A stretch of DNA of 24,232 nucleotides from the IMG/VR virus record IMGVR_UViG_3300000101_000035, positions 1 through 24,232 of that record, one strand, 5' to 3'. Under the pieces are notes generated by a model. The model had not been told where the DNA came from, searched no databases, and saw only the letters and a list, made by a program, of their open reading frames with translations. Positions 2,278 through 18,817 of this stretch are shown piece by piece. The translations under genes were made by a program, and so were the position numbers. Every line of letters starts with the position of its first letter. Position 1 is the stretch's first letter. Source of the DNA: a virus.

Positions 2278-2307
2278 ATTATAGCATAAGATAAGCTATC
2301 TTGTCAA
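2278..2307 (-). promoter_or_regulatory. Near-consensus sigma70 promoter for helicase-primase
   Basis: On the minus strand TTGACA (2307-2302) is followed by an 18-base spacer and TATAAT (2283-2278), with TG one base before the -10 (extended -10, TGCTATAAT). All twelve hexamer bases match consensus. The helicase ATG lies only 10 bases beyond the -10, so the predicted leader is about 3-4 bases and has no room for a Shine-Dalgarno. The spacer holds an inverted repeat, ATAGC-N9-GCTAT, whose second arm overlaps the -10; it could be an operator. Confidence 0.85.
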
Positions 2308-2315
2308 CAGTATAA

Positions 2316-2561: not shown

Positions 2562-2624
2562 AATATTAATTTAAGATGAGTTCTCATTAGAATACACTAA
2601 CTTTTGTAGTTCGTTACTTTTATA
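2562..2624. other. 63-bp intergenic gap with a 12-bp palindrome
   Basis: The gap between the nuclease stop and the TTG of the 81-residue gene contains a perfect palindrome with a 2-base centre, ATGAGTTCTCAT at 2576-2587. It could be a small operator. There is no following U-tract to make it a terminator and no convincing -35/-10 pair. Confidence 0.3.
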
Positions 2625-3035: not shown

Positions 3036-3054
3036 TTTTAATTTTAAAGTTTAT

Positions 3055-3675: not shown

Positions 3676-3681
3676 TTATTT

Positions 3682-4617
3682 TTATATATTAAAGCAGTTT
3701 TGATATTCATCTATAAATATTTTAGATTTGTTCGGCAGAAACGATTTCCAATCAGAAAGGTTGCGAAGTAAATCTAAAGTATTTCTATACCCAAAAAATT
3801 CATCTTTTAAGTTTTTTAATAAATCTTGATCGTTTCTATCTTGGTAAACTGAGGCGTTATTGTAAACGACAGATTTTGGGTGGTAGTATTGCATGATGTA
3901 ACTACCCCAGATATCGTCAAACCTGCCAACAAAAGGAATCATCATGTAATTTGGGATGACCTTTCTAGATAAAAAAGTGTTTTGGCTATTGAATGGAGAA
4001 ATTTTATCAGAGCAAAATGGTTTAAATTTTTCGAATTTAATCTCTGGAGATAAAGCTAGTCTAGCTATAGCGTCAATATCAGGATCTCCATTCCAGAGAT
4101 CAGCTTGAACTAAAAAACTCCTCTCCTCTTCTTTTAAAAGTTTAGATTCTCGATGATGGATTAATTCTATTGGTAAACCTCTATGCCAAATGTGTTTTTG
4201 ATTAGTGGCAGACAGAGGATCAAAAACTTTTAAGTTTTTGGGCTCAAAAACTGAAGTTTGAACAGGAGACTCCACTAATAAATCTTGACCCCAATCACTA
4301 TAGGGAATATTGTCATCATCAACCGTAGCCATTATTTCCGCGCCGCTTTGGTAAGCGTAAACAAAACCCAAGTTCCTCCTTTGAATGGTTTTCCAACCTA
4401 AAGAGTCACTTAGTTTTTTATATCTTTTAGATTGGTAATCTGGGTGTAGGTATTTTAAAGATTTGAATTTACCTTCTAGCTTTTTATACAAATCGTGAGG
4501 TGTGGAAGTGTCTCCAACAATAACAAAGGTCCAGCCTCTTTCTTCAGATATCTTGCAAAACTTAAGAGTTGCTTTTGTTGGCTTGTTAATTGTTGTAGTT
4601 ACAATATATTTATTCAT
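3682..4617 (-). CDS. Putative glycosyltransferase, STELLO/RGP-like GT-A fold
   Basis: The 311-residue protein starts with a GT-A strand (KYIVTTTINKP), has FVIVGDTSTP near residue 35, QRRNLGFVYAYQSGAE around 80-94 and a metal-binding acidic cluster TVDDDNIP at about 99-106. This combination recalls the DUF288/STELLO and reversibly glycosylated polypeptide families. I place the start at the ATG at 4617; an in-frame TTG one codon earlier is also open. The ATG overlaps the upstream gene's TGA by one base (TGATG), so translation is probably coupled. The donor sugar is unknown. Confidence is good for a nucleotide-sugar binding GT-A protein and lower for the family name. Confidence 0.65.
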   Translation of the reverse strand: MNKYIVTTTINKPTKATLKFCKISEERGWTFVIVGDTSTPHDLYKKLEGKFKSLKYLHPDYQSKRYKKLSDSLGWKTIQRRNLGFVYAYQSGAEIMATVDDDNIPYSDWGQDLLVESPVQTSVFEPKNLKVFDPLSATNQKHIWHRGLPIELIHHRESKLLKEEERSFLVQADLWNGDPDIDAIARLALSPEIKFEKFKPFCSDKISPFNSQNTFLSRKVIPNYMMIPFVGRFDDIWGSYIMQYYHPKSVVYNNASVYQDRNDQDLLKNLKDEFFGYRNTLDLLRNLSDWKSFLPNKSKIFIDEYQNCFNI

Positions 4618-5591
4618 CAAATCTTAAATTCAGGTAAGGGCATGGTCTGAAGTGGAGAAATTTTAGGCATTTTTTTAGGAAGACTTTGCATAAAACCAGT
4701 ATCAATAAAATTATCAAGGGGAGGCTTGAAGTCTCTTTGAGTTAACCTTCTTTCTAAGCAAAAGGCGTTTGTTTCTTGAGTTTCTTGGGGGAGAGTTTGA
4801 GCTATTCTTGAGCCTCCATGAGCTCCTGGAGAATTAAAATTTATAGGCATGTAACCGCAAATGTAATTTTTAAAATATTTCGCCCTCATAAAGAAATCAT
4901 GTTCAGAATTTACTAAGGGAAAGTTTTTTTCATCTAAAAAATTGAGTTCAATAATTTTAGATCTATCTATTAGTAAGGGGCCTCTATTGCAAGTTTCACC
5001 TGATATAAAAACATTTTCAGGAAAGTCTTTTGGGAGAGGAGTGTTGGGATCCAAGCATTTAAATCCGTGAATAGGATATACCGAAGAGGGCCTTGAGTGG
5101 GTGCATCTTCCAGACACTCCGATACAATTGCGATAACTGTCAAAAGGTCTTGCAAGCTGTAAGTTATAGCCTGGTTGAACCATTTCTTGATCCCCTTGAA
5201 TTTCTAAACAAAACTTACCTTCAGCGAGCATAAAACCCAAATTATCGCAAGAAGATTCAAATATTGGAAAATCCGAATGATCAATAATTGAAACTTGTTT
5301 GAAGTTTTTGTATTTATTCTCGTAATTATCAAAGTAAGTATTAATTTTTTCTAAAGAGTTGTCAATGCAAAAATCTAATATAATAATTAATTCACTTGAT
5401 CCTTGAGTGTATTTCAATATAGATTCAATATTTTTACATATAAAAGAATCTTGATTGAATACTGGCAAGACAACAGAAAAATCTACACTAGCAATATTAT
5501 TCAAATGAATTTTTTTATATTTAAAATTCCTCCTCGGTTCGTTATCGGGTAAAACGACCCCAAAATCATCTATTAATTTATCATAATTCAT
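4617..5591 (-). CDS. Family 2-type glycosyltransferase
   Basis: 324 residues. After a leader of about 37 residues the GT2 core begins with FSVVLPVFNQDSFICKNIESIL (38-59), then ELIIILDFCIDNS (67-79) in the usual place of the second conserved Asp. LEIQGDQEMVQPGY (129-142) takes the place of the DxD region, with QGDQ rather than DxD. NSEHDFFMRAK (228-238) resembles the ED catalytic-base region of GT2 enzymes. No membrane helix is visible, so it is likely soluble or peripheral. Its ATG at 5591 lies inside the end of the upstream gene, an 11-base overlap. The C-terminal 50 residues are proline-rich and not recognised. The atypical DxD means donor or metal use may differ from the norm. Confidence 0.75.
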   Translation of the reverse strand: MNYDKLIDDFGVVLPDNEPRRNFKYKKIHLNNIASVDFSVVLPVFNQDSFICKNIESILKYTQGSSELIIILDFCIDNSLEKINTYFDNYENKYKNFKQVSIIDHSDFPIFESSCDNLGFMLAEGKFCLEIQGDQEMVQPGYNLQLARPFDSYRNCIGVSGRCTHSRPSSVYPIHGFKCLDPNTPLPKDFPENVFISGETCNRGPLLIDRSKIIELNFLDEKNFPLVNSEHDFFMRAKYFKNYICGYMPINFNSPGAHGGSRIAQTLPQETQETNAFCLERRLTQRDFKPPLDNFIDTGFMQSLPKKMPKISPLQTMPLPEFKI

Positions 5592-6261
5592 GTTTAAAAT
5601 CTCTGATTATTGTCCAATCTGAAGTTAATCTAGTATTATCATAATTAATTCTTTCTCCAATAAAAAAATAATTTTTTCTTGGATATTTAATAACATTCCC
5701 AACGCCGAATTCGTCATGAATGAAAATATTTCCATTCGAGTGGAAATAGCTATAAACTTCCTGCAAGAAAGTTTGATCACTACCATAGGCGAAATGTTTA
5801 GCTAGATATGAAGATTTGATTCTAGAAACTAGATCATAAGATTTAGCAAAAATGCCCCAACAACCACCCATGAATGAAGGACCTGAGCAACCAGACGGTA
5901 TTCGGTGTAGTGGGTGATCCCTGATGCAATGAGAGCTTTTACCCGAGTCGATCCATTCTTGTACGGCTGATTTTTCTCTAGAGTTAATTCTGGAATCAGC
6001 ATCTCTAAAAATAACATAATCAACATCTTCCAGCTCGCAGGCAAAATACCTCCAAAACATACCATAATAGCTTTCATCAGCGGGAATGCATAAACAATCT
6101 AAATTCGAAAGATTATCAATAACACTAGAATCCACATCTTGAGAATAAAAAACTACCATTTTCCAGCCTGGATAAATTGAAGGAATAAGTTTAGCGTTTT
6201 CGATAGCTCCTTGTGTGTATAATTTTTCTCGACCCCACAAGCTGAAACTAATATAATTCAT
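5581..6261 (-). CDS. Putative GT-A-like glycosyltransferase (FWR/RDxDSR family, copy 1)
   Basis: 226 residues, one of three homologous modules in the window (the others are 7861-8733 and the N-terminus of 16019-18817). Shared marks are an ISFSLWG start strand, FWR at 69-71, a DVDYVIFRDADSR strand with RDADSR at 86-91 (probable metal and nucleotide-sugar site), EWIDSGK, GGCWG at 132-136 and SDQTFL at 161-166. This copy is essentially the bare core module. The ATG at 6261 follows a 27-base gap with no Shine-Dalgarno. The function as a sugar transferase is inferred from the RDxD strand, the fold order and the surrounding genes; I do not know a characterised close relative. Confidence 0.65.
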   Translation of the reverse strand: MNYISFSLWGREKLYTQGAIENAKLIPSIYPGWKMVVFYSQDVDSSVIDNLSNLDCLCIPADESYYGMFWRYFACELEDVDYVIFRDADSRINSREKSAVQEWIDSGKSSHCIRDHPLHRIPSGCSGPSFMGGCWGIFAKSYDLVSRIKSSYLAKHFAYGSDQTFLQEVYSYFHSNGNIFIHDEFGVGNVIKYPRKNYFFIGERINYDNTRLTSDWTIIRDFKHEL

Positions 6262-6288
6262 TAACGATTTAAAATAAAAATAGATTTC

Positions 6289-6945
6289 CTAAATCCAATC
6301 TCTCCTAAAGTTTTCAAGGTCAATATAATTAGGTATATCTAATTTTTTATACAACTCTTTTTTTATAAAAAACATATTTCCAGTATGGCATAAAAATTTA
6401 TAACCCTTTTGTTCTCCTAGTTGATTCATGGCTGCAAAACCTGTCCCTTGATATTTTTCAGGAGTATGTATGTGGCTGGAGTTATTAGGATCTATGGAAG
6501 AGTTTATTTCAATTATAACTAATTTTGGTTGATAAAATTGAAGGCTTTTCCATACTTGATAATCAAAACCGTCAATATCAATTGATAATACATCAAAGTT
6601 TTTTGGCAGATTGGTTTTGGAGAGTAAAAAGTCTAAACCTTTTTCTTCCTTTAAGTGGCTAACAAAACTTTGTATAGGAAATATATTTGAATATGTTTTT
6701 TTTAATTCAAGAAGATCCGCAAACTTAACTTCATCACCCTCTATCAATACTCCTTTAAAACCTTTCTCGATTAGAGAAAAAGTATTTGACAGATGAACCC
6801 CGTCCCAAGCTCCAAATTCACAAACCCAGCCATTGTTAATGTCAAGCCTGTTTAGGATTTCTTCTACAATTCCATCTTCTCCATTTTGAGAGTAAATGTC
6901 TTTTTTGTATTTTTCGAAAAATAAATTTTTGTATTTAGGGATCAT
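6289..6945 (-). CDS. FkbM-family SAM-dependent methyltransferase
   Basis: 218 residues with the FkbM layout: the YSQNGEDGIVEEIL helix (18-31), motif I VCEFGAWDG (41-49), GVLIEGD (65-71) after strand 2, and VLSIDIDGFDYQVWKSL (119-135), a hallmark of this group. FkbM relatives methylate hydroxyl groups on polyketides and on sugars of surface polysaccharides, which suits the glycan context. The ATG at 6945 follows a 31-base gap and has no Shine-Dalgarno. The acceptor cannot be predicted. Nothing looks truncated. Confidence 0.85.
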   Translation of the reverse strand: MIPKYKNLFFEKYKKDIYSQNGEDGIVEEILNRLDINNGWVCEFGAWDGVHLSNTFSLIEKGFKGVLIEGDEVKFADLLELKKTYSNIFPIQSFVSHLKEEKGLDFLLSKTNLPKNFDVLSIDIDGFDYQVWKSLQFYQPKLVIIEINSSIDPNNSSHIHTPEKYQGTGFAAMNQLGEQKGYKFLCHTGNMFFIKKELYKKLDIPNYIDLENFRRDWI

Positions 6946-6976
6946 GAATTTGTAATATTGCAGTTAGTGTAATTCA

Positions 6977-7864
6977 TTAAATAATATACGACTTTAAATT
7001 AAAATCGCTCCAACCCCAGTTTTCTGGATTTTGAGTTTTTTGGAAATTTCTAACAGCAAAAGCTTGATCATTCATGGGAAGTATTTTTTCAGAATCAATA
7101 ATTTTGCGCTGTCCAGGATGGCTTTCATGATCCATGTGAAAAACATCTTCTTCAGCTCTTCGAATATTTTCGTAACCAAAATAAACAGAAGATTTTTTTA
7201 ATATATTTGAGTCGGCATAGAATCTACCCCCTAAAGATTCTTCAAATCCTTTAATTTTATTCCAGACATCTCGATGAGCAAATTGAAAATCTCCTGGACC
7301 AAGAACTAAAGACCAAATATCTCCCGCATCCCAAAGTGGAATGGGGGTTCCATCTTCTTTGTAACCAACAGTATCTTGAGCTTTTGGCCAGTTACTTTTA
7401 TTCGTTAAGAGATCGTTTAATAAATCATCACTGCTTCTATAGTTTAAATGTTGGGATTCAGGGACGTTTCTTCGACCACAAGTATACATCACTGAGTTAG
7501 AATAATTATTTAAATTTGGTTTTTTTAACAATATATCAATATTCGTCTGCAGTATCCAATTGCTAGAAGCTCTCCTTAAGCCAATGTTTTTGGCAATCGG
7601 CTCTACTATTAAATATTTTTCATACTGAGGGCTGTTCAAGACAACGTCTTCTTGACTTACTTCTATAACGGTTAATTTGCCTAAATTAATTAAATCTTTT
7701 TTTATATCACTAATTAAAGATGAACCTGGGGATACCCAATCCACATAGATAACTTCATCAAAATTATTAATTAAATTATTTAAACATAAAATCGCCCTAT
7801 GATGCAAGTTTCCGCCGTAATTATCATTGCGACCTATGACTATAGAACATATAGAATCTTTCAT
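6977..7864 (-). CDS. Putative GT-A glycosyltransferase (GT2-like)
   Basis: 295 residues. The N-terminal strand CSIVIGRNDNYGG (6-18) and the EVIYVDWVSPGSSL region (37-50) match a GT2-like nucleotide-binding half; NIGLRRASSNWILQTNIDILL (93-113) matches the helix plus DxD strand, with TNID in place of DxD. Near the C-terminal half, GPGDFQFAHRDVWNKIKGFEESL resembles the segment of GT2 enzymes where the transferase recognises its acceptor (GxFDE-type). The ATG at 7864 overlaps the preceding gene's TGA by four bases (ATGA), so it is probably translated by coupling. Family membership is reasonably secure, donor and acceptor unknown. Confidence 0.65.
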   Translation of the reverse strand: MKDSICSIVIGRNDNYGGNLHHRAILCLNNLINNFDEVIYVDWVSPGSSLISDIKKDLINLGKLTVIEVSQEDVVLNSPQYEKYLIVEPIAKNIGLRRASSNWILQTNIDILLKKPNLNNYSNSVMYTCGRRNVPESQHLNYRSSDDLLNDLLTNKSNWPKAQDTVGYKEDGTPIPLWDAGDIWSLVLGPGDFQFAHRDVWNKIKGFEESLGGRFYADSNILKKSSVYFGYENIRRAEEDVFHMDHESHPGQRKIIDSEKILPMNDQAFAVRNFQKTQNPENWGWSDFNLKSYII

Positions 7865-8733
7865 ACGAATAGAAATTTATTACCCCGAATTAAATGTTTT
7901 GGAATACCTAAATAAGCTTCATGAGATAAATCTTTTATTTCTTTTATTTTGGAATAATTATTTTTTAGAAATTTATATTTGGCATCGCTCTGCTCACTAC
8001 GATACCCAGAAGAGGACTTACTTTCCCAGTTTTTTTGATGAGGCTCATAAACCCCGCAGGCTTCAGTAACATTGTGTTCAGTAATTATTAATTTTTCATT
8101 AATATTATTTGCATTACCTATTGGAGTTTGAGTTTTTAAACCTCCAGTATCTAAAGGTAAGTTAATATGATCTGCGCAACCGTGTCCAAAGTAAAATCCA
8201 AAACTTAAGGTTTTTTCTTTCACTAGGGGGTAAACAAAATCCGCTAGGAAGATTTGATCATCATTATATTTGGTTGTGTCGTGTTTATCTTGAAACTTGT
8301 TTACTAATTCGACCATAGAAAAAGAAAATTTTCTAGGTTTACCTCCCCAGAGCCCCCCTAGTATTTCTATGTTATGAGATAAATGGCATCTTCCAGAAAA
8401 AAAATCATGATTACTTTTTTCCCATTCTCGAACCATGTTGTAGTCCCAAAAATTTAATCTATCATCTAGGTCTCTACTTAAAAAAACTTCTACATCTGGA
8501 TCGTCCCAAGCATAAAACCTCCAAAACATATAATTAACATCATTGATAACTTTATTGTATTCTACTCTATCGTGTTTAATTAACTTGCTTTCAGGGACTG
8601 AATCATCATAGTAAACTCTGATTTTCCAAGAAGGATCTTGAAAAACTTCATCTAGTAGGTCGATATTATGTTTTAAGCCCTCTAGATATTTGGGCTCTTG
8701 CCCATATAAACTATATGATATTATTTTTTTCAC
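7861..8733 (-). CDS. Putative GT-A-like glycosyltransferase (FWR/RDxDDR family, copy 2)
   Basis: 290 residues, starting at a GTG (8733) inside the end of the upstream gene (23-base overlap). It repeats the module marks: ISYSLYGQEPKYLEGL (5-20), FWR at 70-72, VFLSRDLDDR with RDLDDR at 87-92, GGLWG at 126-130 and DDQIFL at 158-163. The last ~110 residues are specific to this copy and contain HGCADHINLP and a CGVYEPHQ segment. Probably a soluble sugar transferase; the three copies likely arose by duplication and act on different linkages. The ATGA overlap with the following gene suggests coupled translation. Confidence 0.65.
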   Translation of the reverse strand: MKKIISYSLYGQEPKYLEGLKHNIDLLDEVFQDPSWKIRVYYDDSVPESKLIKHDRVEYNKVINDVNYMFWRFYAWDDPDVEVFLSRDLDDRLNFWDYNMVREWEKSNHDFFSGRCHLSHNIEILGGLWGGKPRKFSFSMVELVNKFQDKHDTTKYNDDQIFLADFVYPLVKEKTLSFGFYFGHGCADHINLPLDTGGLKTQTPIGNANNINEKLIITEHNVTEACGVYEPHQKNWESKSSSGYRSEQSDAKYKFLKNNYSKIKEIKDLSHEAYLGIPKHLIRGNKFLFV

Positions 8734-9586
8734 TTTTATTTCTTAAGGGAATATTAACTAAAGAATCTACATCTACTCCATGTTCAGACCAAGGATGAGA
8801 AAATAAATTGTGCATTTCAGGATTGAAGGTTCCATTTCTTTGATATAGAACTAGTTTCTCGGCTTTTAATTTTAATTTCTCACAGATCCAAGTTGTTGAA
8901 GAACCTTCCATCCAGATTTCTTTAGCATTTTCGATCACTTTCATCCAGTCAAAGAGAGTGAATTGATCTAAAAATTCTACAGATATATGCCTTAGTCCTT
9001 TTTTACCCGAACTGCTTTTTAGGAAATTATCAAGAATAAAGTTGAAAACCGAAACGGAATTCGGGGGAGTTCCTAAGAAAGTATTAACCAATGCATAATC
9101 TTCTCCGTCTTTAATTTTTAAGACATTATAATATAGATCGTTTTCTTTGTCTGTATTGCGATTAATGTGGAGATAATCAGGCCAGTCGCTATCAGATACT
9201 CCAACAAAAGAGTACTTTCTTTTTTGTATTGTACCTGGGTTTGGCATAATTTCTGGATTGGCAGCTTGAATATTGGGCAAATGATTTGTGGGGACTATTT
9301 TTAGATTTATATCACCCACAATTCCATCGTAGATTTTTCCCAATTGACCTGGATTTTCGCGAGCTAGCCTGTGAATTTTTTCATTTAACCCAATCTTGAT
9401 ATAACCATCCAGGGAGTCAGGGAAATATTTAAAATTTTTAATATAATCAGATATATAAGAAGAATAAAAATCGCAAATAGGCCAGAAAATTTCATAACCT
9501 TGATCTTGATAGTGATAGCCTATTTTTTGAAGATATAAAATATCCCCCAACCCTTGAGGTTGGTTGATTATACAAATTTTTTTCAT
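8711..9586 (-). CDS. Putative GT-B-like transferase (heptosyltransferase/GT9-like shape)
   Basis: 291 residues from the ATG at 9586, which forms an ATGA overlap with the upstream methyltransferase stop; a longer frame to a TTG at 9607 exists but would begin inside that gene. The N-terminus KKICIINQPQGLGDILYLQKIGYHYQDQGYEI has the glycine-rich GLGD loop (12-15) after the first strand that is common in GT9-like proteins, and EIWMEGSSTTWICEKL (about 223-238) resembles the C-terminal donor-binding GSS loop. The middle is not recognised. It is placed among the transferases by shape and context only; another Rossmann-type role is possible. Confidence 0.5.
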   Translation of the reverse strand: MKKICIINQPQGLGDILYLQKIGYHYQDQGYEIFWPICDFYSSYISDYIKNFKYFPDSLDGYIKIGLNEKIHRLARENPGQLGKIYDGIVGDINLKIVPTNHLPNIQAANPEIMPNPGTIQKRKYSFVGVSDSDWPDYLHINRNTDKENDLYYNVLKIKDGEDYALVNTFLGTPPNSVSVFNFILDNFLKSSSGKKGLRHISVEFLDQFTLFDWMKVIENAKEIWMEGSSTTWICEKLKLKAEKLVLYQRNGTFNPEMHNLFSHPWSEHGVDVDSLVNIPLRNKSEKNNII

Positions 9587-10275
9587 TTTTGTAAAAACAT
9601 TAAACAATCTCTGAATCTGTCTGGAGAAACATCTGCATAAAAGTTGAATCTAGTATTTCTTAAAATTTTACTTATAGTTTCAGAATCATTCCAAAACCAG
9701 CCTCCAAAGGTATCAAATTCTCTGTATTTGTTTTGCAATTCATAGTCTAACATTAAAGATTCTTCACCGTCAAAATGTCTCGCAGAATATTTAAAATGTC
9801 GAAAAAAGTCGGCAAGCATAATTAAGGCTTTTCCCCCTGGCTTTAGCTTATTATAGATAGAGTTTATATAAGTTTCTACAGCTGAATTTGGGAGATGACA
9901 AAAAACTCCAAAAGAAAAAACAAAATCTACAGAAGAGTCTTCTACTCCTGTACAGTTGTAATCCTTGTTTTCAAGTTCTATATAGTTAACATTGCTTAAG
10001 TTTCTTTTGGACAGCGCAACTTCATTTTTTGGAAGAATATCTAGCGCTATGACTTTTTTAAAATTAGGAGATAGAAACTCTGAAGTCCAGAGACCTGCCC
10101 CGCAGCCAACTTCTAAGCAGGTATGATTTGAATTATAATACTTAGATAATTCTGAGACAACCTGACTTTTATGTTCGCTTTGGTATCCACTAAAGTCTTC
10201 TGTGTAACCAGTTTTTCCCCAAGCATTTATAAAATCTTGACTATTTAATCCAGGCGAAAGTTTTTCGTTTTCCAT
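9583..10275 (-). CDS. Class I SAM-dependent methyltransferase (Methyltransf_11/25-like)
   Basis: 230 residues. Motif I is CLEVGCGAGLWTSEF (53-67), strand 2 ends VIALDI with Asp79, and VDFVFSFGVFCHLPNSAVETYINSIYNKLKPGGKALI is the classic motif II/III stretch (FSFGVFCHLP, then LKPGG). This is a different subfamily from the other methyltransferases in the window. The ATG at 10275 follows a 6-base gap after the SDR gene. A sugar or lipid-linked glycan is a likely acceptor in this setting, but N-, O- and C-methylation all remain open. Confidence 0.85.
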   Translation of the reverse strand: MENEKLSPGLNSQDFINAWGKTGYTEDFSGYQSEHKSQVVSELSKYYNSNHTCLEVGCGAGLWTSEFLSPNFKKVIALDILPKNEVALSKRNLSNVNYIELENKDYNCTGVEDSSVDFVFSFGVFCHLPNSAVETYINSIYNKLKPGGKALIMLADFFRHFKYSARHFDGEESLMLDYELQNKYREFDTFGGWFWNDSETISKILRNTRFNFYADVSPDRFRDCLMFLQK

Positions 10276-10281
10276 ATTATT

Positions 10282-11262
10282 TTATTTAATTTTTTCTAAC
10301 CAATAATTCAGCAAATCTTCTAAAGTTTTATCTATGTTATATTCTTCTTTAAAATTAGTAAGCTCAACAAGATTAGTAGCATCTCCATGTTGATAATGAA
10401 TATCATGGGGTCTCCAAAATTTTTTATTTATTTTTTGCTCAACATTATTTAAGCCTGATAGTTCTATTAATTTGTCGGTAAAAAATTGCATTTTTCTAGG
10501 AACATCCCCGCAAACATTAAAAATATGGTTGTTTACTTCTGGGTGAATCATTGCAAGGTAGTAAGCTTTGATTGTATCTCTAACATCCATAACTACTCTT
10601 ACGCTATTTAGATTACCGATAGATAACACAGGCTCTTGTAATCCCTTCATCATTCTTGCTATTTGATAAGCGTCAGAAGATATAGAAAAATTCTTGCCTC
10701 GCCTTGGTCCAGTATGAGAAAAAGCTCTTGTGATGAAACCTTTTATAAAACCATTCTCCATTCTTTCTTGAAGGTATAAATCAGTGGCAGCTTTCGAAGC
10801 TCCATATGGATTAGCTGGAAACATCTTATCTTCCCAGTTAATCTTTCTACCATCCATGCCTTCGTTTCCGTACACCTCAGAAGTAGAACAAAACATCAGT
10901 TTGCATTCTGGTTGGTGATCTTGAATTACTTGAATTAAATTCGCGCTTCCTATAATATTGTCATCAAAAGTCCCAAGGGGATCTTCAAAACTTGAGGGAG
11001 GATGGGATTGAGCAGCTAGATGAAACACCCCATCAAAAGAATTATTTTCAAAGATATTTCTAAGAACTCTATAATTTCCAAGGTCGGAGTGATGAAATCT
11101 GATGGAATTATAAACTTCATCAGAAACAACATCTAAGATGTCTGCTTCCATTCCGTTAGTCCTTCTTATCAAGCCATGAACTTTATGACCTTCTCTATGT
11201 AATAAATTTGCTAAATGTGGACCTGCGAATCCAGTTACACCTGTAATTAAAAAGTTTTTCAC
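10282..11262 (-). CDS. Extended SDR, GDP-mannose 4,6-dehydratase / GDP-6-deoxyhexose reductase type
   Basis: 326-residue nucleotide-sugar modifying enzyme. NAD(P) binding loop FLITGVTGFAG (4-14, TGxxGxxG), VFHLAAQSHPPSSFEDP (79-95), the STSEVYG catalytic Ser/Thr strand (126-132) and NPYGASKAA with Tyr153 and Lys157 are all present. The N-terminal half and STSE resemble GDP-mannose 4,6-dehydratase; FSHTGPRRG and SIGNLNSVRVVMDVRDTIKAYYLAM are closer to GDP-4-keto-6-deoxymannose reductase (Rmd). It could supply GDP-rhamnose, GDP-fucose intermediates or a related deoxyhexose. The start is GTG at 11262; the ATG two bases upstream is followed at once by TGA in its own frame. It is the first gene after an internal promoter. 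Confidence 0.85.
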   Translation of the reverse strand: MKNFLITGVTGFAGPHLANLLHREGHKVHGLIRRTNGMEADILDVVSDEVYNSIRFHHSDLGNYRVLRNIFENNSFDGVFHLAAQSHPPSSFEDPLGTFDDNIIGSANLIQVIQDHQPECKLMFCSTSEVYGNEGMDGRKINWEDKMFPANPYGASKAATDLYLQERMENGFIKGFITRAFSHTGPRRGKNFSISSDAYQIARMMKGLQEPVLSIGNLNSVRVVMDVRDTIKAYYLAMIHPEVNNHIFNVCGDVPRKMQFFTDKLIELSGLNNVEQKINKKFWRPHDIHYQHGDATNLVELTNFKEEYNIDKTLEDLLNYWLEKIK

Positions 11263-11317
11263 ATTATATATTATACTATATAAACTTATTTTTTAAAGTT
11301 TATTAAATTATTTTTAT
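11263..11317 (-). promoter_or_regulatory. Internal promoter module A (upstream of the SDR gene)
   Basis: The -10 TATAAT is at 11275-11270, seven bases before the GTG, giving an almost leaderless transcript. No good -35 is visible 17 bases upstream; AACTTTAA sits there instead. The -10 is enclosed by an inverted repeat with 7-base arms, TTATATA and TATATAA (11283-11277 and 11270-11264). The block is similar base for base to the one before 14002: the first 25 bases differ at two positions, both have AAACTTTAA, both have TATAGTAT(A/T)ATA over the -10, and both run into TGAAAAACTT at the gene start. Confidence 0.55.
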
Positions 11318-11362
11318 TAATTTTATTATAGCTTGTTTTGTTGTGCTCTCATATCTATATAT
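11318..11362. other. Remainder of the ~100-bp intergenic region
   Basis: Very AT-rich. It contains the short string GAGAGCACAACAAAACAAGC (minus strand) just after the upstream gene. I see no stable hairpin with a U-tract, no tRNA-like fold and no small ORF with a credible start. Confidence 0.4.
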
Positions 11363-11989
11363 TTATATTATACGTAAGCAGGCCTGTTGCTTGTCATAAG
11401 CGCATTCTCTATTGTCAAGATAAACTTCACCGTTTACTCCTATCCATTCGTAATTAATATTAGGGTTTTCAAATAGCCACTCAGATAAAGCTCTTAACTC
11501 GCTGGATTCATTGTAAAAACCTTTAAAGTTAACCAATTCGTCAAACACTATAATACAACCTTCACTTATTTGGTCTCGCTTTGTTAGCGTATCTAATACA
11601 TACTTGGTGGAACTATATAAATCTGCGTCTAGATGCAAGAAGCTGATCTCTTCTCGATTATGAGAAAGAAAATTTTCAAGAGTTTTATCAAACCAGCCTT
11701 TTACTAACTCGACATTACTGTTAACTTTTGGTAAAGAGCCGCTTCTGCCAAACGATCCTTTTGGAAATCCGTCTCTCCATTTTTCTGGCAAGCCTTCAAA
11801 GCTATCAAATCCATAAACTTTATCTTGAGTAAATTTTGATATATAGTTAATAGTATTTCCGTTAAACGTTCCAAACTCCAACCATAATGTATTAGGTCTG
11901 TGTTGATACTCAAGATCCTCAAAAATGTAATGTAGGCAGTATTTTTTCACATTTGGTATGTTTTTTATTATGTCATAATTTATCGTCAT
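11363..11989 (-). CDS. TylF/MycF-family O-methyltransferase
   Basis: 208 residues from the ATG at 11989, which overlaps the glf stop as ATGA; the open frame continues to a GTG at 12025 but that lies within glf. Motifs fit the TylF (macrocin O-methyltransferase) family: LWLEFGTFNGNT (35-46), VYGFDSFEGLPEKWRDGFPKGSF (58-80), LHLDADLYSSTKYVLDTL (118-135) and GCIIVFDEL (144-152). Characterised relatives methylate sugar hydroxyls on macrolides using a metal held by the Asp residues of the LDADLY and FDEL segments, so a deoxysugar O-methyl transfer is a natural proposal next to the SDR and Glf genes. Family assignment is firm, the acceptor is inferred. Confidence 0.88.
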   Translation of the reverse strand: MTINYDIIKNIPNVKKYCLHYIFEDLEYQHRPNTLWLEFGTFNGNTINYISKFTQDKVYGFDSFEGLPEKWRDGFPKGSFGRSGSLPKVNSNVELVKGWFDKTLENFLSHNREEISFLHLDADLYSSTKYVLDTLTKRDQISEGCIIVFDELVNFKGFYNESSELRALSEWLFENPNINYEWIGVNGEVYLDNRECAYDKQQACLRII

Positions 11990-12981
11990 TTTATTTTCTC
12001 CATTACTTGCTTTATTGCCATCCACATATCTAAGTATTTATAAGTAGCAAGTCTCCCTAGAAATATTACATTTTTTTCTTTCCTTGCCTGGTTTTTGTAC
12101 TTATAATATATCTCATTTCCACCATGAAAAGGCTTGGGGTATATTGGATCATTTTTACCTTTTTCATATTCTTCGGGGTAATCTCTTGTTAGTATTGTAT
12201 ATTCTGGTTTTTCATTTAAATAAGCGGCGCTATCCATTGTTCTATTAAATGGCTGTTTGTTGCATTCATTTATTACAGCACCTAATTCGTATGAAAATTC
12301 TTTACTATCTCTTTTAGCTTTAGTATGTTCAAACCTAAGAGATCTGTAGGGCAAGTGTCCATGGCAATTATTATAATATTGGGATATGGTTCCTGTCCAT
12401 ACTAGCATATCTCCTTTTAATTTTTTGTAATCTTCTTTGCCTACATTTAAATTTACTTTTACACCATCAAGCATAGACTTGAACATTTCTGTATATCCTT
12501 TTTCAGGTATACCCTGATAAGTGTCAGTAAAATATCTATCGTCATAGTTATCTCTTTTGTTTGGGATTCTACCCCTTATACTTCTAGGCAATTCTTCCCA
12601 AGGTGCCCCCCAATGTCTTTCGGAATAATCCACAAATAGCAACTTCTGAATCTCCTCTGGGCTTAAATCCTTACCTAACTGCTCTTCCGTTTTCTTGTTA
12701 AAAGGTATAGATAGTCGCCCTTCATTCGTGTTAGCTCTAACTCTATGCTCGTAATTATTAAACTTGGTATATCTATTTACAAAACCCCAAACTTCTTCAC
12801 TGTTCGTGTGAAATATATGAGATCCATATTTGTGAACAGTCACCCCCTCTTTCTTTTCATCGTAACAATTTCCCCCTATATGACTTCTCGTTTCGAATAT
12901 TTCTACATCATGACCCTGCTCTTTAAGTAATATGGCTGAAGTTACACCTGAGAGCCCACAACCTATTATGTTAATTTTCAC
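11986..12981 (-). CDS. glf: UDP-galactopyranose mutase
   Basis: FAD enzyme that converts UDP-galactopyranose to UDP-galactofuranose, the donor for Galf-containing glycans. 331 residues, a little shorter than typical bacterial Glf (about 370). Visible marks: FAD loop INIIGCGLSG (3-12), HIGGNCYDE (34-42), YGSHIFHT (52-59), the active-site neighbourhood FVDYSERHWG, GRIPNKRDNYDDRYFTDTYQGIPEKGYTEMF, and the C-terminal GRLATYKYLDMW (309-320) that closes the FAD site. Start is GTG at 12981, overlapping the upstream transferase by 11 bases. It implies that the phage or its host has UDP-Gal available and that at least one transferase here could use UDP-Galf. Confidence 0.95.
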   Translation of the reverse strand: MKINIIGCGLSGVTSAILLKEQGHDVEIFETRSHIGGNCYDEKKEGVTVHKYGSHIFHTNSEEVWGFVNRYTKFNNYEHRVRANTNEGRLSIPFNKKTEEQLGKDLSPEEIQKLLFVDYSERHWGAPWEELPRSIRGRIPNKRDNYDDRYFTDTYQGIPEKGYTEMFKSMLDGVKVNLNVGKEDYKKLKGDMLVWTGTISQYYNNCHGHLPYRSLRFEHTKAKRDSKEFSYELGAVINECNKQPFNRTMDSAAYLNEKPEYTILTRDYPEEYEKGKNDPIYPKPFHGGNEIYYKYKNQARKEKNVIFLGRLATYKYLDMWMAIKQVMEKIK

Positions 12982-14002
12982 TTAATATATAAGACTTAAT
13001 CCATTCTTTCTTGTAGTATTTGTTTTTTATGTAGCTTTGCTGAGCAAAGCACTCCTTGTATAACCGCTCATCTTCTGAGAGGATTTTAAGTTTACGAACA
13101 AACTCTTCAGCTAATTGAAAAGAGCAATCTCTTGAAAAATAATCTCCAGATTCAAACGGAAAAACCACATTCATATTTTGAATCATTAATAAAGAATTTA
13201 CATACAAACTTTCAAAGAGTCTTCTGCATAAATTTCCAGTACCATTTAAGTGTAAGGAAAATTTGTAATAAGAGAGGGCTTTTATATAATTTTCAAAATT
13301 TAAACCTTTATGCTCCATTAAGAGCTTGCCCGAGTCTAGGTTAAGCTCAGAGGCGTGAATATCTCTAATCATTGATTCTCGATTAACCCACTCGTCTTCG
13401 TATCCAGAACGATTAAAATTTAAATGAGCTCCCGCCCAAAAACATTTATTGATTTTAGGCTTGGTTTTTAGCGCGTCGCCAAGTAAAAGCCATACAGGAT
13501 TAACCTGACCAAAAGCTAAAAAGGGGAATGGTTTAACTTTTGAGGAATACTCCTGCATATGAGTTGTTCTATACTCCCTTTTAAATATTAAATCATAATG
13601 AAAATTGTTTTCAATTAAAAACCTCTCACCTTTTTTTGCAAGAGGTTTGTCCGCAGCGTCAAAAAAATATAATTTATTGTATTTAATGTTGGAAAGCAAG
13701 TCGTAAATGTGAGAAACATGACTCTTTTTATCTTCCATAATCGCATCTTCATTTTTTTCCCAAGTTTGATTGTATCCATATCTATTAACACTATCTATTT
13801 CATAACATATGAAGATATTATCATAAGAATTGCCTAATTTTTTAGAGTCGTAAATTCCTTTTATACCATAAGTTTCAAACAAGCCATCGGGGCTTAATGA
13901 ATTTTTCGCATACGTCCCCCCTGGAGACCAATAATCAAAGTTCTCAAAAACTTTTGTTAAAAAAGTAATGTTGTTTTGGGGGTCAATTATTAAGTTTTTC
14001 AT
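12971..14002 (-). CDS. Putative GT-B-type glycosyltransferase
   Basis: 343 residues with a weakly recognisable C-terminal donor-binding half: FENYIKALSYYKFSLHLNGTGNLCRRLFESLYVNSLLMIQ (about 236-275). That pattern (a helix, a strand with a glycine turn, then R-x-FE-L-x-x-x-S) is what exostosin/GT90-like and other GT-B proteins carry. The N-terminal half has KLYFFDAADKP and a conserved-looking YRTTHMQEY region but no clear family. The ATG at 14002 follows an intergenic promoter. Another possibility is a non-glycosyl GT-B-fold protein, but the neighbours argue for sugar transfer. Confidence 0.55.
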   Translation of the reverse strand: MKNLIIDPQNNITFLTKVFENFDYWSPGGTYAKNSLSPDGLFETYGIKGIYDSKKLGNSYDNIFICYEIDSVNRYGYNQTWEKNEDAIMEDKKSHVSHIYDLLSNIKYNKLYFFDAADKPLAKKGERFLIENNFHYDLIFKREYRTTHMQEYSSKVKPFPFLAFGQVNPVWLLLGDALKTKPKINKCFWAGAHLNFNRSGYEDEWVNRESMIRDIHASELNLDSGKLLMEHKGLNFENYIKALSYYKFSLHLNGTGNLCRRLFESLYVNSLLMIQNMNVVFPFESGDYFSRDCSFQLAEEFVRKLKILSEDERLYKECFAQQSYIKNKYYKKEWIKSYILSEN

Positions 14003-14063
14003 ATTATATTATGTATAATACTATACATAAATTTTTAGTTAAAGTTTTTTAAGTTATTTTTAT
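14003..14063 (-). promoter_or_regulatory. Internal promoter module B (upstream of the 14002 transferase)
   Basis: The -10 is TATTAT at 14020-14015, 12 bases before the ATG. The -35 is poor (TTTAAC at the 17-base position, three matches). The block repeats module A at 11263-11317. Its upstream third overlaps the last codons of the 14049 gene, so it sits partly in coding sequence. The shared start context TGAAAAACTT suggests one copy was derived from the other, including the first codons. Confidence 0.5.
14010..14029. repeat. Perfect inverted repeat over the -10 box
   Basis: TATGTATA and TATACATA arms of 8 bases separated by GTAT (minus strand). It covers the -10 of module B, so a repressor or activator bound here would control the promoter. 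AT-rich sequence makes short palindromes common, but an 8-base perfect arm pair placed exactly on the -10, with a similar one in module A, is more than casual. Confidence 0.5.
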
Positions 14064-16019
14064 TGGCCTAGATTGATTTAATAAAGATAGATCATCTGTC
14101 AGCCTATTAAAATAGCTAAAAACATTGAAATGCGTTCTTAAAAACTCTTTTTGAAGTAATAGCTTATCTCTCCTAACCATATACTCTATAGGCAAATTCT
14201 TTTTGTCAAGCTTTTCCACATCTGAAAGAAGTATGTAACTGTCTTCAATAAAGTAATCGCTTAAATTTGGAGCGCTTTGACATATTGGTATTGACTCGCA
14301 TAGTATTGGATCTGTAACTTTTTCCGTTATATAATCTTCCTGAGAGTATAGCGCCGTGTTATTTTCAATAGCGAGACTAAAGAGATAAGGCTGTAATGAA
14401 ATGTATTTTTCATTTAGAAATTTCGAATTGGTATTGTAATGGTATCCGCCTAAACTTTTATTATATCCGCCGCCAAATAAATCAATTTTATTATCAAAAC
14501 TTTCAGAAAACTTCCTAATCATCTCTTTTCTCCAGGGGTACATTCCGCTGTCAATTGCTGAAATTAAATTAGGGGGATTGCTCAAGCCCGCAAGCAAACT
14601 TAAGGTGGATTCATTTTTGCTAATAGGCGGAGACCAGCAACACATTGTTGGGGCATATCGAATGTAGGGATCGTTTTCATTCGGTCTAGCATCCTGGACA
14701 AAGCTATGACAATTATCTAAAACTGGATGTCTTGTATGAGACTCAGCAGACAATAAAAACTTCTGCGAATTTGTTCCGCCAATTTTTTGAAATGTTTCTA
14801 CGTTATTTATATAAACCCCGACGGTAAAATCAGGCGCATTTTCTGTATGCTCATAATCTTTTATAGCCCAATCTAAAATATTCTTTTTAAAAAAGTTGAA
14901 ATCATGATTGTATTGAAATACCCAATTAATAACTTTATTTTTAATTTTGATATTAATTTCATTATCAAATTTTTCTTTCTTTTTTATAATAATATTAATT
15001 TTACCCCCTTTATCTTCTTTATAATTATCTATAGAGCATAAAGTCTTGCAAGATTTAGAAGCCACATCAAAAGCATCTGAGATTTTTCGAGGGAGATCTT
15101 GCTCTAGATCGCCCAAGGAGACATCTTGATCTTCTGAAACTCCGTTAGAACAGATTCTTGGAGAGAAATTTATAAAGTTGGGCTTTGCTCCATATCTTTT
15201 TTCAGAGAAAATTGAAGCAGCTTTTATAAAATCTGAAGTTAAGTCATCTTGATTCTCGAGAAAGCAAAGAGGTCTAACAGGCAAAACATTAAACAAGTTT
15301 ACTGATCCTCCAGCAGCTATAAATTGCCACCCCTTAAATAAGCTAGCTAAAAGTTGAACCCCCATGAAATGATCTCCCGCTTCTTTGAGTAAGTCTCTTT
15401 GGAAATTTTTATCCAAACCTATTGCATCGGGGAAATTATTTTTTATTATGTTCGTTAACTTAGGGTAAAAATGAGTTTTTACCTCACAGTAAATGGAATT
15501 AGAGGGTAAAGATAAAGATCTAAAATAATCAATGGTTGAGCTTCTTATGTATATATTTGGAAAAACAAATTCATTTATCACCTCATCTATGGAAACTTCA
15601 TTAGCTTCTTCAAAGCCATGCATGCCCATTCCACCACCATATATATCTTTGAAGTTTGGAATCTGGCTGAAGTAGCTAGCGTCAGTACCAAAAGAAGAGT
15701 AGTCACTCGAATAGATATTATGTAAATGAGTATCTTTCAGACATATAACTTCGTCAGAGAATAAACCAAAAAAAGTAAATTGATTCATTGATCCGATTGA
15801 GGTGATCTTTATTCTGTTTTTCTTGCAGTATATACTTAGTTTAAATAACTCCAAACTAATATAAGTTTCATTATAATGAGGAGCTATAACGATTTCCTTG
15901 TCGTAATTATCTAAATTATTAAATATATATTTATACCCAATTTTATCTCCTTCATGAGCGCTTTTGGGAAGATCGATTTCTGAAAAATTAGAATCATTTA
16001 CTGATTGTATCGAGAGCAT
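14049..16019 (-). CDS. Two-part protein with C-terminal GT10 (fucosyltransferase-like) domain
   Basis: 656 residues from the ATG at 16019, which shares a base with the upstream TAA (TAATG); an extra 24 codons to a TTG lie inside the upstream gene. The C-terminal part (about 491-650) is GT10-like: YLFSLAIENN (545-554) and EDYITEKVTDPILCESIPICQSAPNLSDYF (561-590) match the alpha-1,3/4-fucosyltransferase motif FxFENs...DYITEKL..aL..g.vPV. The N-terminal ~330 residues carry IVIAPHYNETYISLEL and a late HFMGVQLLASLFKGWQFIAAGGSVNLFNVLP stretch, which has the feel of a GT-B C-terminal half, but I do not recognise a family. It may be a fusion of two transferases making consecutive linkages. Confidence 0.75.
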   Translation of the reverse strand: MLSIQSVNDSNFSEIDLPKSAHEGDKIGYKYIFNNLDNYDKEIVIAPHYNETYISLELFKLSIYCKKNRIKITSIGSMNQFTFFGLFSDEVICLKDTHLHNIYSSDYSSFGTDASYFSQIPNFKDIYGGGMGMHGFEEANEVSIDEVINEFVFPNIYIRSSTIDYFRSLSLPSNSIYCEVKTHFYPKLTNIIKNNFPDAIGLDKNFQRDLLKEAGDHFMGVQLLASLFKGWQFIAAGGSVNLFNVLPVRPLCFLENQDDLTSDFIKAASIFSEKRYGAKPNFINFSPRICSNGVSEDQDVSLGDLEQDLPRKISDAFDVASKSCKTLCSIDNYKEDKGGKINIIIKKKEKFDNEINIKIKNKVINWVFQYNHDFNFFKKNILDWAIKDYEHTENAPDFTVGVYINNVETFQKIGGTNSQKFLLSAESHTRHPVLDNCHSFVQDARPNENDPYIRYAPTMCCWSPPISKNESTLSLLAGLSNPPNLISAIDSGMYPWRKEMIRKFSESFDNKIDLFGGGYNKSLGGYHYNTNSKFLNEKYISLQPYLFSLAIENNTALYSQEDYITEKVTDPILCESIPICQSAPNLSDYFIEDSYILLSDVEKLDKKNLPIEYMVRRDKLLLQKEFLRTHFNVFSYFNRLTDDLSLLNQSRPIKIT

Positions 16020-18817
16020 TAATCTATGAATACCTCTTTGAATTTTTTCATTACTGAATCGGGATTGTATTTTTCTGAATAAGCGTCCCAATTCCTAAGA
16101 GAGCAGATGTCTTTTGAGAAGTTTTTGAGTATATTATAAACCTCATCGTAGTTATTATAATACAAAGCTTTATTTCCGAGCATTTGCAAGTGAGCTTTAT
16201 CATTACCCCCGTTTAAAGTTATAACTGGCTTATTTTTAATTGAAAATTCTGCTATAGCAAGACCAAAAGATTCTCCCATGTTTCTGGCGTGTATCATTGT
16301 GTCGCAAGAATTTATAAATTTAGCTTTAAATATTTCATCGCAAAACGGAGGATAGTTTATTACTCTTGGGTGTTTTATAAACTCATTGGTAAAGCCAAAA
16401 AGAAAATATACATCTTCTCTTTCTTTTAAGATATTAGAGATAGCTTCTTGGACGTAAGGAATGTCGAACTGATCGGGACCCCCAAGCCTGCCAAAAACGA
16501 TAGCCTCTTTGGGGATGCCTAGCTCACCCCTCAAATCTGAATTCTCATTTGGTAGATCCACCATATAAGGCACAAAGGGATGCTTGCCGCCGTCCATAAC
16601 TTGACTGAGCCATTCTGAAATATAAGCGTATTTATCGCCATGAGGGTCGCACATTTGAAAAACAGAATGAATACAAGTCTTTACCTTGTTCGAGAATTTG
16701 CCATCGTTATTTCCTCCTTTATGCATATAAAGAATGTCAATATTTTCAAAGCTTAAAATGTCGTCAACGTCAGCCCAGTTGTCATACCTGTAGACTTTAA
16801 ATCTTTCAGAGAAAGCTTTGTGCGATTCCGGACGCTCAAACTGAGACGTCGTTGGTCCCGCAATATAAATAGATTCGTTTCCTAATATCTTTTCATTATA
16901 ATGCGCATACTTATAGGTCGCCCACTCTGATCCCCTGACTCCAATTTCGTTTGTATGGAAAGCTATTCTTTTCTTATCTTTTTTAATATTAAAATTATCA
17001 ACTTTAATATCTTCATCTTTTTTATTATATACCCAACTATTATCTTTGAAAATATCTACAGGCTCCGAATTAAAGAATCTTCTTATGGCTTCCGTTTGAG
17101 AGTGGCCTGTTTTACCTAACTCTCCAAAGCCCCAGTCGTGGCCACACATAAATCCGTCAGGTTTTAATTTGGGATTATATAAATTTAAATATCTTTCGTT
17201 AGCCTCGTAGGTATGCTCTCCATCTAAGTAAACCAAATCAATAGAAGAGTCTTCTATTTGCGCAAAAGCATCTTCAGCTCTCATTTTAAGCTTTACCACT
17301 TTGTCTTTAAAAGGTTTTATGGATTCATCAAACAAATTTTCTACAAAATCCATAGGAGCTTTAAAAGAGCTTTCGTCAGAATTATCGTAATCATTTACCC
17401 AAGGATCTATACAATAGATCTTCTCTATTTTCCCAGTCTCAAGAAGAATTTTTGTAGATTCTCCTGCATAGCAGCCGATCTCAACTACCACAGAGTTATC
17501 CTTTAAGTACTTTTTCCCCATTTCTTTTAAGCCGTCAATTAAAAACTTGTGGGTTTTTTCTGGCCTCTGAAGTATTCTATCTAAATTTAACTTTCCATCT
17601 TTAACCGCAAAACCAGAAAAAGAAGAAGGGTTTTCAACCTTAATCAAATCTAAATCCGAAACAATCCCCAGATTTGTTTTTAGTTTATTTAAAGCATTTA
17701 AGTCTGAAGCAGAGAGAGAATCTTTGGGCGCGTCAGGAATGATAAAATCTGATTTTTTTTGAGAAGGCTTTAAGTTAGCTTGAACATAACAGCAATCTAT
17801 AAAATCTCCGCAATTAGAAACTTTTTTTCCATAATTCCCTAGACCAAGAAAAGAAACTATAGATCTGTCATAATTTTTTGAATAAATGTCTACGCCATCA
17901 GTATTTCCTTTTAACTCTACAAGCTCCAAATTTTTCAAGTCGGACAGGCAAAATTTAATTAAATTTAAATTAGACACACGAACTGGAAAATAAACTTTAT
18001 CAAATTTTTTGCAAAAATCTCTAATTAACCCATTAAGAGGAAATTGATCTTCCATCGCAAGGTGAGATTGAATAAAAATTTCATTACTTTTTTCGCTAGA
18101 GGTTGAGTTTAACAGTTCCGAGGCGAAAACTCTATCTCCCACGAAGCCTCCATATTTTATAGGATCATGTTTTGGGAAGGGGGTTTCATCTCCATGCTCT
18201 ATATAATCGTTTTTAAAAAAATTAAAAACGACATCTTCTAGGAATAATTGATCATCAAAATAAACTGCACTTCCGCTCCCCCAACCTGAGGTTACTTTAT
18301 TTTGGTCAACAGGAGAGTAATTTTTTTCGCTAAAAAATTTATTTAGTTCAAGCTCGAAGTTTAGGCGACCCTTATTAATAATTCCCCACATGCCCGCCAT
18401 GACTTTATGAAAATGGCCTATTTTACAATCATGCATTAAGTGTAGAGACTTCCCAGAGTTAAGCCAATCATCTACAGCCGCCTTCTCCCTGAGATTTACA
18501 ATTGAGTCACAATCTCTTTGAAGGCAAATGTCAACGTCAGGGTCATCGCAAGCTAAAAACCTCCAAAAAACAGGAGGAGAGTCTAAATCAGGAACGATAA
18601 CCTCACAGTCGAGTTGCTTTAACACTTCTAGATTAGGAACATCTTGAGCACAATAAAACCTACATATATAATCTGGGTAAACTTCTTTAGCTTCTTTTAC
18701 ATTTAGTTCCGCGCCTAAGTAATAAAGAGGTTTCTCTCCATAAAGAGAAAAAGATATAACTTTTTTTCCACTTCCTGGGAAAACTTTTTTATAATGAGTT
18801 GGGAAGTTGTTCATCAT
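16019..18817 (-). CDS. Multidomain GT-A / unknown / methyltransferase / GT4 protein, 932 aa
   Basis: Four modules can be read. (1) Residues 19-235: the third copy of the FWR/RDxD module, with ISFSLYG, FWR at 84-86, RDCDS at 101-105, AGMWG at 141-145 and DDQLFL at 188-193. (2) About 245-395: EIFIQSHLAMEDQFPLNGLIRDFC, a GT-like unit I cannot name. (3) About 415-600: SAM methyltransferase with VVVEIGCYAGEST (443-455), IDPW (470-473) and LVYLDGEHTYEA (528-539). (4) 615-932: GT-B retaining transferase, GT4-like, with VFGRLGGPDQFDI (774-786) and the EX7E signature ESFGLAIAE (849-857). The protein may build and methylate several sugars in one chain. Two adjacent ATGs (18817, 18814) are possible; the gene overlaps the upstream GT by 29 bases. 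Confidence 0.8.
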   Translation of the reverse strand: MMNNFPTHYKKVFPGSGKKVISFSLYGEKPLYYLGAELNVKEAKEVYPDYICRFYCAQDVPNLEVLKQLDCEVIVPDLDSPPVFWRFLACDDPDVDICLQRDCDSIVNLREKAAVDDWLNSGKSLHLMHDCKIGHFHKVMAGMWGIINKGRLNFELELNKFFSEKNYSPVDQNKVTSGWGSGSAVYFDDQLFLEDVVFNFFKNDYIEHGDETPFPKHDPIKYGGFVGDRVFASELLNSTSSEKSNEIFIQSHLAMEDQFPLNGLIRDFCKKFDKVYFPVRVSNLNLIKFCLSDLKNLELVELKGNTDGVDIYSKNYDRSIVSFLGLGNYGKKVSNCGDFIDCCYVQANLKPSQKKSDFIIPDAPKDSLSASDLNALNKLKTNLGIVSDLDLIKVENPSSFSGFAVKDGKLNLDRILQRPEKTHKFLIDGLKEMGKKYLKDNSVVVEIGCYAGESTKILLETGKIEKIYCIDPWVNDYDNSDESSFKAPMDFVENLFDESIKPFKDKVVKLKMRAEDAFAQIEDSSIDLVYLDGEHTYEANERYLNLYNPKLKPDGFMCGHDWGFGELGKTGHSQTEAIRRFFNSEPVDIFKDNSWVYNKKDEDIKVDNFNIKKDKKRIAFHTNEIGVRGSEWATYKYAHYNEKILGNESIYIAGPTTSQFERPESHKAFSERFKVYRYDNWADVDDILSFENIDILYMHKGGNNDGKFSNKVKTCIHSVFQMCDPHGDKYAYISEWLSQVMDGGKHPFVPYMVDLPNENSDLRGELGIPKEAIVFGRLGGPDQFDIPYVQEAISNILKEREDVYFLFGFTNEFIKHPRVINYPPFCDEIFKAKFINSCDTMIHARNMGESFGLAIAEFSIKNKPVITLNGGNDKAHLQMLGNKALYYNNYDEVYNILKNFSKDICSLRNWDAYSEKYNPDSVMKKFKEVFID

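Follow-up and report, generated by a model that had tools for sequence, protein, structure and literature searches.

The glycan gene cluster carried by IMG/VR virus record IMGVR_UViG_3300000101_000035 would, on the reading that we favour on balance, supply two donor activities rather than serve one guanosine diphosphate (GDP)-mannose route: a uridine diphosphate (UDP)-hexofuranose made by the mutase Glf, and a nucleoside diphosphate (NDP)-4-keto-6-deoxy-heptose made by an extended short-chain dehydrogenase/reductase (SDR). We analysed bases 1–24,232 of this 44,031-base record, itself a fragment, and refer to this stretch as the window. Glf, a TylF-type methyltransferase dependent on S-adenosylmethionine (SAM) and the SDR had been described as a sugar-donor core under its own promoter; the observations behind this original prediction were partly confirmed and its interpretation partly supported. 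All three open reading frames (ORFs) are intact, lie on the minus strand and have the coordinates first assigned to them (Table 1). The system appears ordinary in kind and new in detail, combining a putative compact clade of viral UDP-galactopyranose mutases (UGMs) with a predicted heptose-type SDR family.

By its residues and predicted fold, Glf is a compact UDP-galactopyranose-mutase-type enzyme. It scores 164.2 bits against Pfam GLF, above the gathering score (cut-off 26.3), and its flavin adenine dinucleotide (FAD) and C-terminal motifs (GCGLSG and the GRLATYKYLDM block) are intact, as had been claimed. An AlphaFold2 model (pLDDT 94.5) finds solved UGMs as its first fold matches and superposes on Escherichia coli UGM (1i8t) with Z 39.7 and a root-mean-square deviation of 1.7 over 325 aligned residues. 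To place the enzyme among its relatives we scanned IMG/VR, in which 146 stretches encode relatives; the best 80 of these 146 (82 to 46% identical) were used and, together with the window Glf, gave the 81 sequences of all residue and deletion comparisons, while the dereplicated Glf set A1 comprised 46 of 47 sequences, the L011 Glf being left out. In all 81 viral proteins the segment matching E. coli Glf 104–134, 31 residues of the helical domain, is absent.

Residue equivalences were taken from alignment to the E. coli enzyme, Klebsiella pneumoniae (Kp) numbering being E. coli + 4 in the N-terminal half. Table 3 of the UGM review PMC3624792 lists residues for uracil, diphosphate, galactose and flavin, and of those given in that part of the review the equivalents of the uracil-stacking F152/Y155, uracil N270, diphosphate R174/R280/Y314, Y349, W160 and H60 are invariant in 81/81 sequences. 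Retention of the uracil site argues for a UDP-sugar. The equivalents of H63 and D351, which we take to be important in UGM, are likewise invariant, and residues and predicted fold together support describing Glf as a mutase whose catalytic residues are intact. The Campylobacter jejuni UDP-N-acetylgalactosamine (GalNAc) mutase 4mo2 has an Arg where the window and E. coli Glf have a His, which favours galactose; this position presumably sets the GalNAc preference.

Several observations weigh against so specific an assignment. The TIGR00031 equivalog is not reached (266.7 against a cut-off of 303.75) and the match is split into two stretches. The Kp N84 position is Leu in 33, Tyr in 23, His in 22 and Asn in 3 of the 81 proteins, 56 of which have Trp at the Kp Y185 position; because both positions vary, the sugar may not be galactose. 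The window has His at the Kp N84 position, likely equivalent, judged by numbering, to the galactose-contacting His of Deinococcus radiodurans UGM. Bacterial UGMs (E. coli 1i8t, K. pneumoniae and D. radiodurans 3hdq) and the window Glf have in common the fold, the FAD motif, the catalytic arginines and tyrosines and the uracil-binding residues, whereas the window protein lacks the 31 helical-domain residues, does not have Asn at the Kp N84 position and has Asp at the Kp E301 position.

The compact form looks mainly viral, judged from samples of two phyla in which cellular Glf is nearly all full length. In the first, 43 of 398 cellular genomes matched Glf with an E value no worse than 1.4e-40, each match lying in an open frame of at least 367 amino acids (aa); in the second, 50 of 240 matched at E 1e-30 and, among the matches listed, four places matched in one piece over 345–358 aa and the others only from profile position 90 or later. 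The one-piece matches indicate that intermediate lengths exist. Other phages also carry a glf gene, but the proteins of Aeromonas phage AS-gz, Erwinia phage FBB1 and Sinorhizobium phage phiM9 (354, 354 and 385 aa) retain most or all of the segment that the window Glf lacks; excerpts of PMC6630229 and PMC10611076 add Agrobacterium phage Atu_ph04 and lake phage DSL-LC01. Galactofuranose had been called rare in phage biology, which at the gene level is not borne out: a Glf relative occurs in 87 of 50,697 phage records, besides the 146 IMG/VR stretches. Our literature search found no paper on the compact form. As a naturally small UGM, it would lend itself to comparisons on the role of the helical domain. 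In two Straboviridae, an Aeromonas and an Erwinia phage (L218 and L219), the glf gene adjoins a MotA-type regulator gene, with an ORF without known function behind. Elsewhere (L058 9575–11485 and L062 11246–13141) a cassette of cupin, RfaE-I-like, RfaE-II-like and phosphatase genes adjoins other compact glf genes, without the SDR of the window.

The SDR, by sequence comparison, appears to be a member of a family that occurs in heptose pathways; a grouping with GDP-mannose enzymes is not supported. It matches Pfam PF16363 (GDP_Man_Dehyd) with 198.3 bits (cut-off 27), and scores far under the equivalog cut-offs of GDP-mannose 4,6-dehydratase (GMD), RmlB, GalE and HldD. Its nearest solved relative, top in phmmer, profile search and Foldseek, is 7us5, the GDP-heptose 4,6-dehydratase of C. 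jejuni, which it resembles in sequence (37% identity), fingerprint and fold; identity is 27% to E. coli GMD, 20% to E. coli HldD and 27–28% to the GDP-4-keto-6-deoxymannose reductases (RMDs) 2pk3 and 6x3b. The catalytic residues had been described as intact, and T127-S128-E129, Y153 and K157 do fit the fingerprint [ST]SExnYx3K, which Table 1 of PMC8987622, the part of that source used here, gives for GDP-mannose 4,6-dehydratases. The fingerprint is invariant in 24/24 rows, and 7us5 has SSE in it. In trees the window SDR falls into its own clade of 26 viral and cellular rows (100/99), and the GMD clade (100/100 and 100/99 in the two trees) excludes it. The second tree groups it with 7us5 and two cyanophage proteins (84/94), with the RMDs 2pk3 and 6x3b on a separate branch. 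Both trees leave out the L134 and L144 sequences, and the second differs from the first by the omission of six long rows and the addition of two.

The GMD-type fingerprint and the Pfam family name could also be read as the original prediction read them, with the SDR as a GDP-mannose 4,6-dehydratase or a GDP-4-keto-6-deoxymannose reductase making a 6-deoxyhexose beside galactofuranose, and in fold the RMD 2pk3 ties with 7us5 (Z 35.2 each). We consider this unlikely, given a score of 118.2 against the 415 of the GMD equivalog TIGR01472, the position outside the GMD clade, the greater identity to 7us5 than to E. coli GMD and the heptose context of the relatives described below. It remains fair to say that a single SDR would hardly carry out dehydration as well as reduction, and the statement that only one is present holds for the whole record, which has a single SDR match. 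Assignment to a heptose dehydratase nevertheless has its own difficulties. Support for placing the SDR clade beside 7us5 is not strong (85/88 in the first tree, 84/94 in the second), and long-branch warnings apply to both trees; 2pk3 also has the fingerprint Glu, which together with its fold tie means that dehydratase and reductase are not separated; and parts of the active site in the SDR model have pLDDT below 50.

The gene neighbourhoods of SDR relatives point to heptose. The viral set comprised 44 loci with SDRs of 63–82% identity, of which 43 were counted (the L104 SDR was not extracted), forming 17 dereplicated groups; neighbour clusters were named after their representatives. An RfaE-II-like nucleotidyltransferase occurs in 33 of these 43 loci, an RfaE-I-like or HddA-like kinase in 32, a cupin in 27 and an EcbF/BcbF-like phosphatase in 20. 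By group, the nucleotidyltransferase is found in 12/17 of the SDR set against 6/49 of the Glf set (10/80 Glf loci), p 1.3e-5. A scan of species genomes, from which the best 80 of 169 relatives were taken, gave 14 cellular homologues (49–71% identity; L130–L143), many on contigs of metagenome-assembled genomes (MAGs) and some of these short; L128 and L129, which are phage-like, and L144, which is cut, were left out. Homologues of HldE, GmhA, GmhB or HddA lie in the flanks of 11/14 cellular SDR loci against 1/63 control loci (p 6e-10), the controls being weaker SDR relatives from the same scan, often on shorter contigs; with loci of at least 12 kb the comparison is 10/12 against 1/36, and the flank counts are unchanged with E. 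coli queries alone. On a 343-kb Pelagibacteraceae contig (L130) the SDR gene stands directly between those of an RfaE-I-like kinase and an RfaE-II-like protein, and the flank contains GmhA and GmhB matches.

Other features of these neighbourhoods count against the heptose assignment. The viral kinase and RfaE-II representatives fall under their equivalog cut-offs (106.6 against 345 and 124.7 against 181.5), 5/17 viral SDR groups have neither kinase nor nucleotidyltransferase, and in several of the 11 cellular loci the support is a single heptose gene some kb away. On the record, which is a fragment, RfaE-II, PfkB, EcbF/BcbF, HddA, GmhA and HAD-IIIA were sought and none was found.

In one cellular locus (L139) GmhA, GmhB, the SDR and HldE follow one another directly, and all three partners exceed at least one NCBIfam cut-off (for GmhA, 209.7 against 209.45). 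The SDR thus occupies an HldD-like place, and it could be a heptose C4- or C6-epimerase or C4-reductase standing in for HldD instead of a dehydratase. None of 13 genomes with SDR homologues has an HldD match over the cut-off, which is weak evidence because these genomes may be incomplete and just 2/14 control genomes pass. This role seems to us doubtful, since the dehydratase fingerprint has its Glu in every row and E. coli HldD is only 20% identical. The score against HldD TIGR02197 is 47.6, short of its cut-off of 274.6. Our literature search found no paper on the family, which would offer a concrete activity next to HldE-type pathways.

Phage-borne genes of the heptose pathways have precedents. 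Excerpts of PMC7378029 and PMC7029224 report such genes in SynMITS9220M01 and rfaE in pelagimyophages, respectively. The Synechococcus phages Bellamy and SynMITS9220M01 each have a protein closely related to 7us5 (75% and 74% identity, respectively) and an HddA-like kinase encoded nearby, so that C. jejuni-type heptose dehydratases probably occur in isolated phages. These proteins (L220 6001–7020 and L223 6001–7038) are annotated just as epimerase/dehydratase. The window SDR differs from them (34% identity) and, being in its own clade, from 7us5; the neighbours of its relatives are mostly of RfaE/HldE type rather than HddA/HddC.

Glf and the SDR generally do not travel together. Searching the 44 SDR loci (flanks up to 6 kb) gave no Glf hit, and in the 80 Glf loci (flanks up to 8 kb) no SDR hit exceeded 25.1% identity. 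A conserved Glf–SDR pair was rejected on these counts, contig L128 having both genes. L128 is labelled as a proteobacterial MAG but is phage-like, with uvsX (76%) beside the cluster and a stated coverage of 0.13. It carries the SDR (91%), a 343-aa ORF (79%), Glf (67%) and TylF (60%) in direct succession, an order from which the ORF, Glf and TylF emerge as a trio conserved between window and L128, with the SDR on its other side. More distant relatives of the ORF (38%), TylF (33%) and Glf (37%) share one 13-kb locus (L222), where a different SDR and genes of HddA-like and RfaE-II-like type are also present. Single-sequence scans found no relatives of the ORF or of TylF; alignment-based scans found one relative of the ORF (in L222) and none of TylF, though L222 holds the 33% relative.

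The arrangements in L128 and L222 fit one shared product and so speak against two separate donors. On this alternative the SDR, with a reductase from elsewhere, and Glf would form an NDP-6-deoxy-heptofuranose; TylF would O-methylate this donor and the 343-aa ORF would use it. An excerpt of PMC10680097 describes a GDP-heptose 4,6-dehydratase route in C. jejuni HS:10 and HS:41 that ends in heptofuranosides, the cluster mutase being assigned by gene context, and according to part of PMC12369002 another C. jejuni mutase acts on cytidine diphosphate (CDP)-6-deoxy sugars. A single pathway nonetheless strikes us as improbable: the viral Glf keeps the UGM uracil-binding residues, Glf and this SDR are never together in the 44 and 80 loci, and the record is without a second SDR that could be the reductase.

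With two donors, the favoured reading, the cluster would have been inserted beside uvsX in a phage whose replication genes are T4-like. Reduced FAD of Glf would form a flavin-N5 sugar adduct, a mutase mechanism covered in the excerpt of PMC12369002, and contract a UDP-hexopyranose to the furanose, UDP-galactose being the most likely substrate. The TylF-type enzyme may O-methylate a sugar hydroxyl before or after transfer; it matches PF05711 with 42.4 bits (cut-off 23), the C-terminal part of the profile being matched, and its best solved match is CalS11, a thymidine diphosphate (TDP)-rhamnose 3'-O-methyltransferase (E 5.7e-5). The SDR most likely would oxidise C4 and remove the C6 hydroxyl of NDP-D-glycero-D-manno-heptose, yielding the NDP-4-keto-6-deoxy-heptose. 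As none of the heptose-activation families sought turned up on the fragment, the heptose donor would be supplied by the host or by phage genes beyond the sequenced part. We also entertain, as a long shot, that the family is an unrecognised adenosine diphosphate (ADP)-heptose 4,6-dehydratase replacing HldD, shared by bacteria such as SAR11 and phages, which in the window lineage feeds the compact mutase towards an O-methylated 6-deoxy-heptofuranose; we know of no virus with such a donor. The products may be used on the host surface glycan or the virion, a surface glycan change being the view taken for pelagimyophages in part of PMC7029224. DNA glycosylation was considered as a use of Glf because the gene adjoins replication genes. 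If the two-donor reading is true, phages would carry, besides heptose-activating genes, enzymes branching a heptose pool, and this would be one way to rewrite a surface glycan during infection.

Table 1. Features of the window, with positions counted from its first base
Feature	Position	Strand	Remarks
Glf	11986..12981	-	331 aa, GTG start; without residues matching E. coli Glf 104-134; assigned by Pfam, residues and fold
TylF-type SAM-dependent methyltransferase	11363..11989	-	208 aa from ATG 11989; ORF reaches up to GTG 12025
Extended SDR, predicted NDP-heptose 4,6-dehydratase type	10282..11262	-	326 aa, GTG start; assigned by PF16363, 7us5 relation, trees and neighbourhoods
AT-rich gap, TylF stop to SDR start	11263..11362	-	100 bases; promoter-like hexamers at chance level
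343-aa ORF, family unrecognised	12971..14002	-	likely glycosyltransferase; 11-bp overlap with Glf start
Second SAM methyltransferase, directly downstream of SDR	9583..10275	-	Methyltransf_23, 54.4 bits
Glycan gene cluster containing Glf, TylF and SDR	3055..19895	-	sits between dnaB/vsr-like and uvsX

The genes are transcribed in the order 343-aa ORF, Glf, TylF-type methyltransferase, gap, SDR and second methyltransferase. The first of these, whose end overlaps the Glf start, had been omitted from the original prediction, and searches of Pfam, NCBIfam and PHROGs at E 0.001 gave no match to it. The overlap of TylF with Glf that had been reported does exist, but its size is 4 bp (ATGA) and not the roughly 40 bp that a start at GTG 12025 would give: GGAG lies in front of ATG 11989, which is therefore most likely the start. 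Contig L128 has the identical ATGA overlap, and also a 67% homologue of the second methyltransferase.

The promoter proposed ahead of the SDR fared less well. Sigma-70-like sites are present in the gap, yet without excess over shuffled sequence: positions 2300–20000 hold 75 of them, where shuffles give 75.1 ± 9.2, and TATAAATA occurs in 7 copies in the window against 4.4 ± 2.2 expected, a number that 15/100 shuffles reach. With the promoter at chance level and Glf and the SDR apart in the 44 SDR and 80 Glf loci, though together in L128, a core under its own promoter is a weak description of these genes.

The wider cluster contains glycosyltransferase-like genes together with methyltransferase genes, several of which match no family, and is flanked by a DnaB-like helicase and an ORF that we take to be vsr-like on one side and uvsX on the other. 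In another locus (L026 6902–9390) glf is the sole gene between uvsX and the vsr-like ORF and overlaps both, where the window has about 17 kb at the same site. Within the cluster, window positions 16019–18817 encode a 932-aa protein with a Methyltransf_24 domain in its centre, whose halves match two separate L128 ORFs. Further along the same record, at about 31441–40897 (L002 7442–16898), lie two large repeat proteins, one of 1288 aa with GCTD..ACNY..DDGSC repeats and one of 1883 aa whose repeats we take to be RCC1-like; these are possible virion or adhesin proteins and could be decorated by the glycan.

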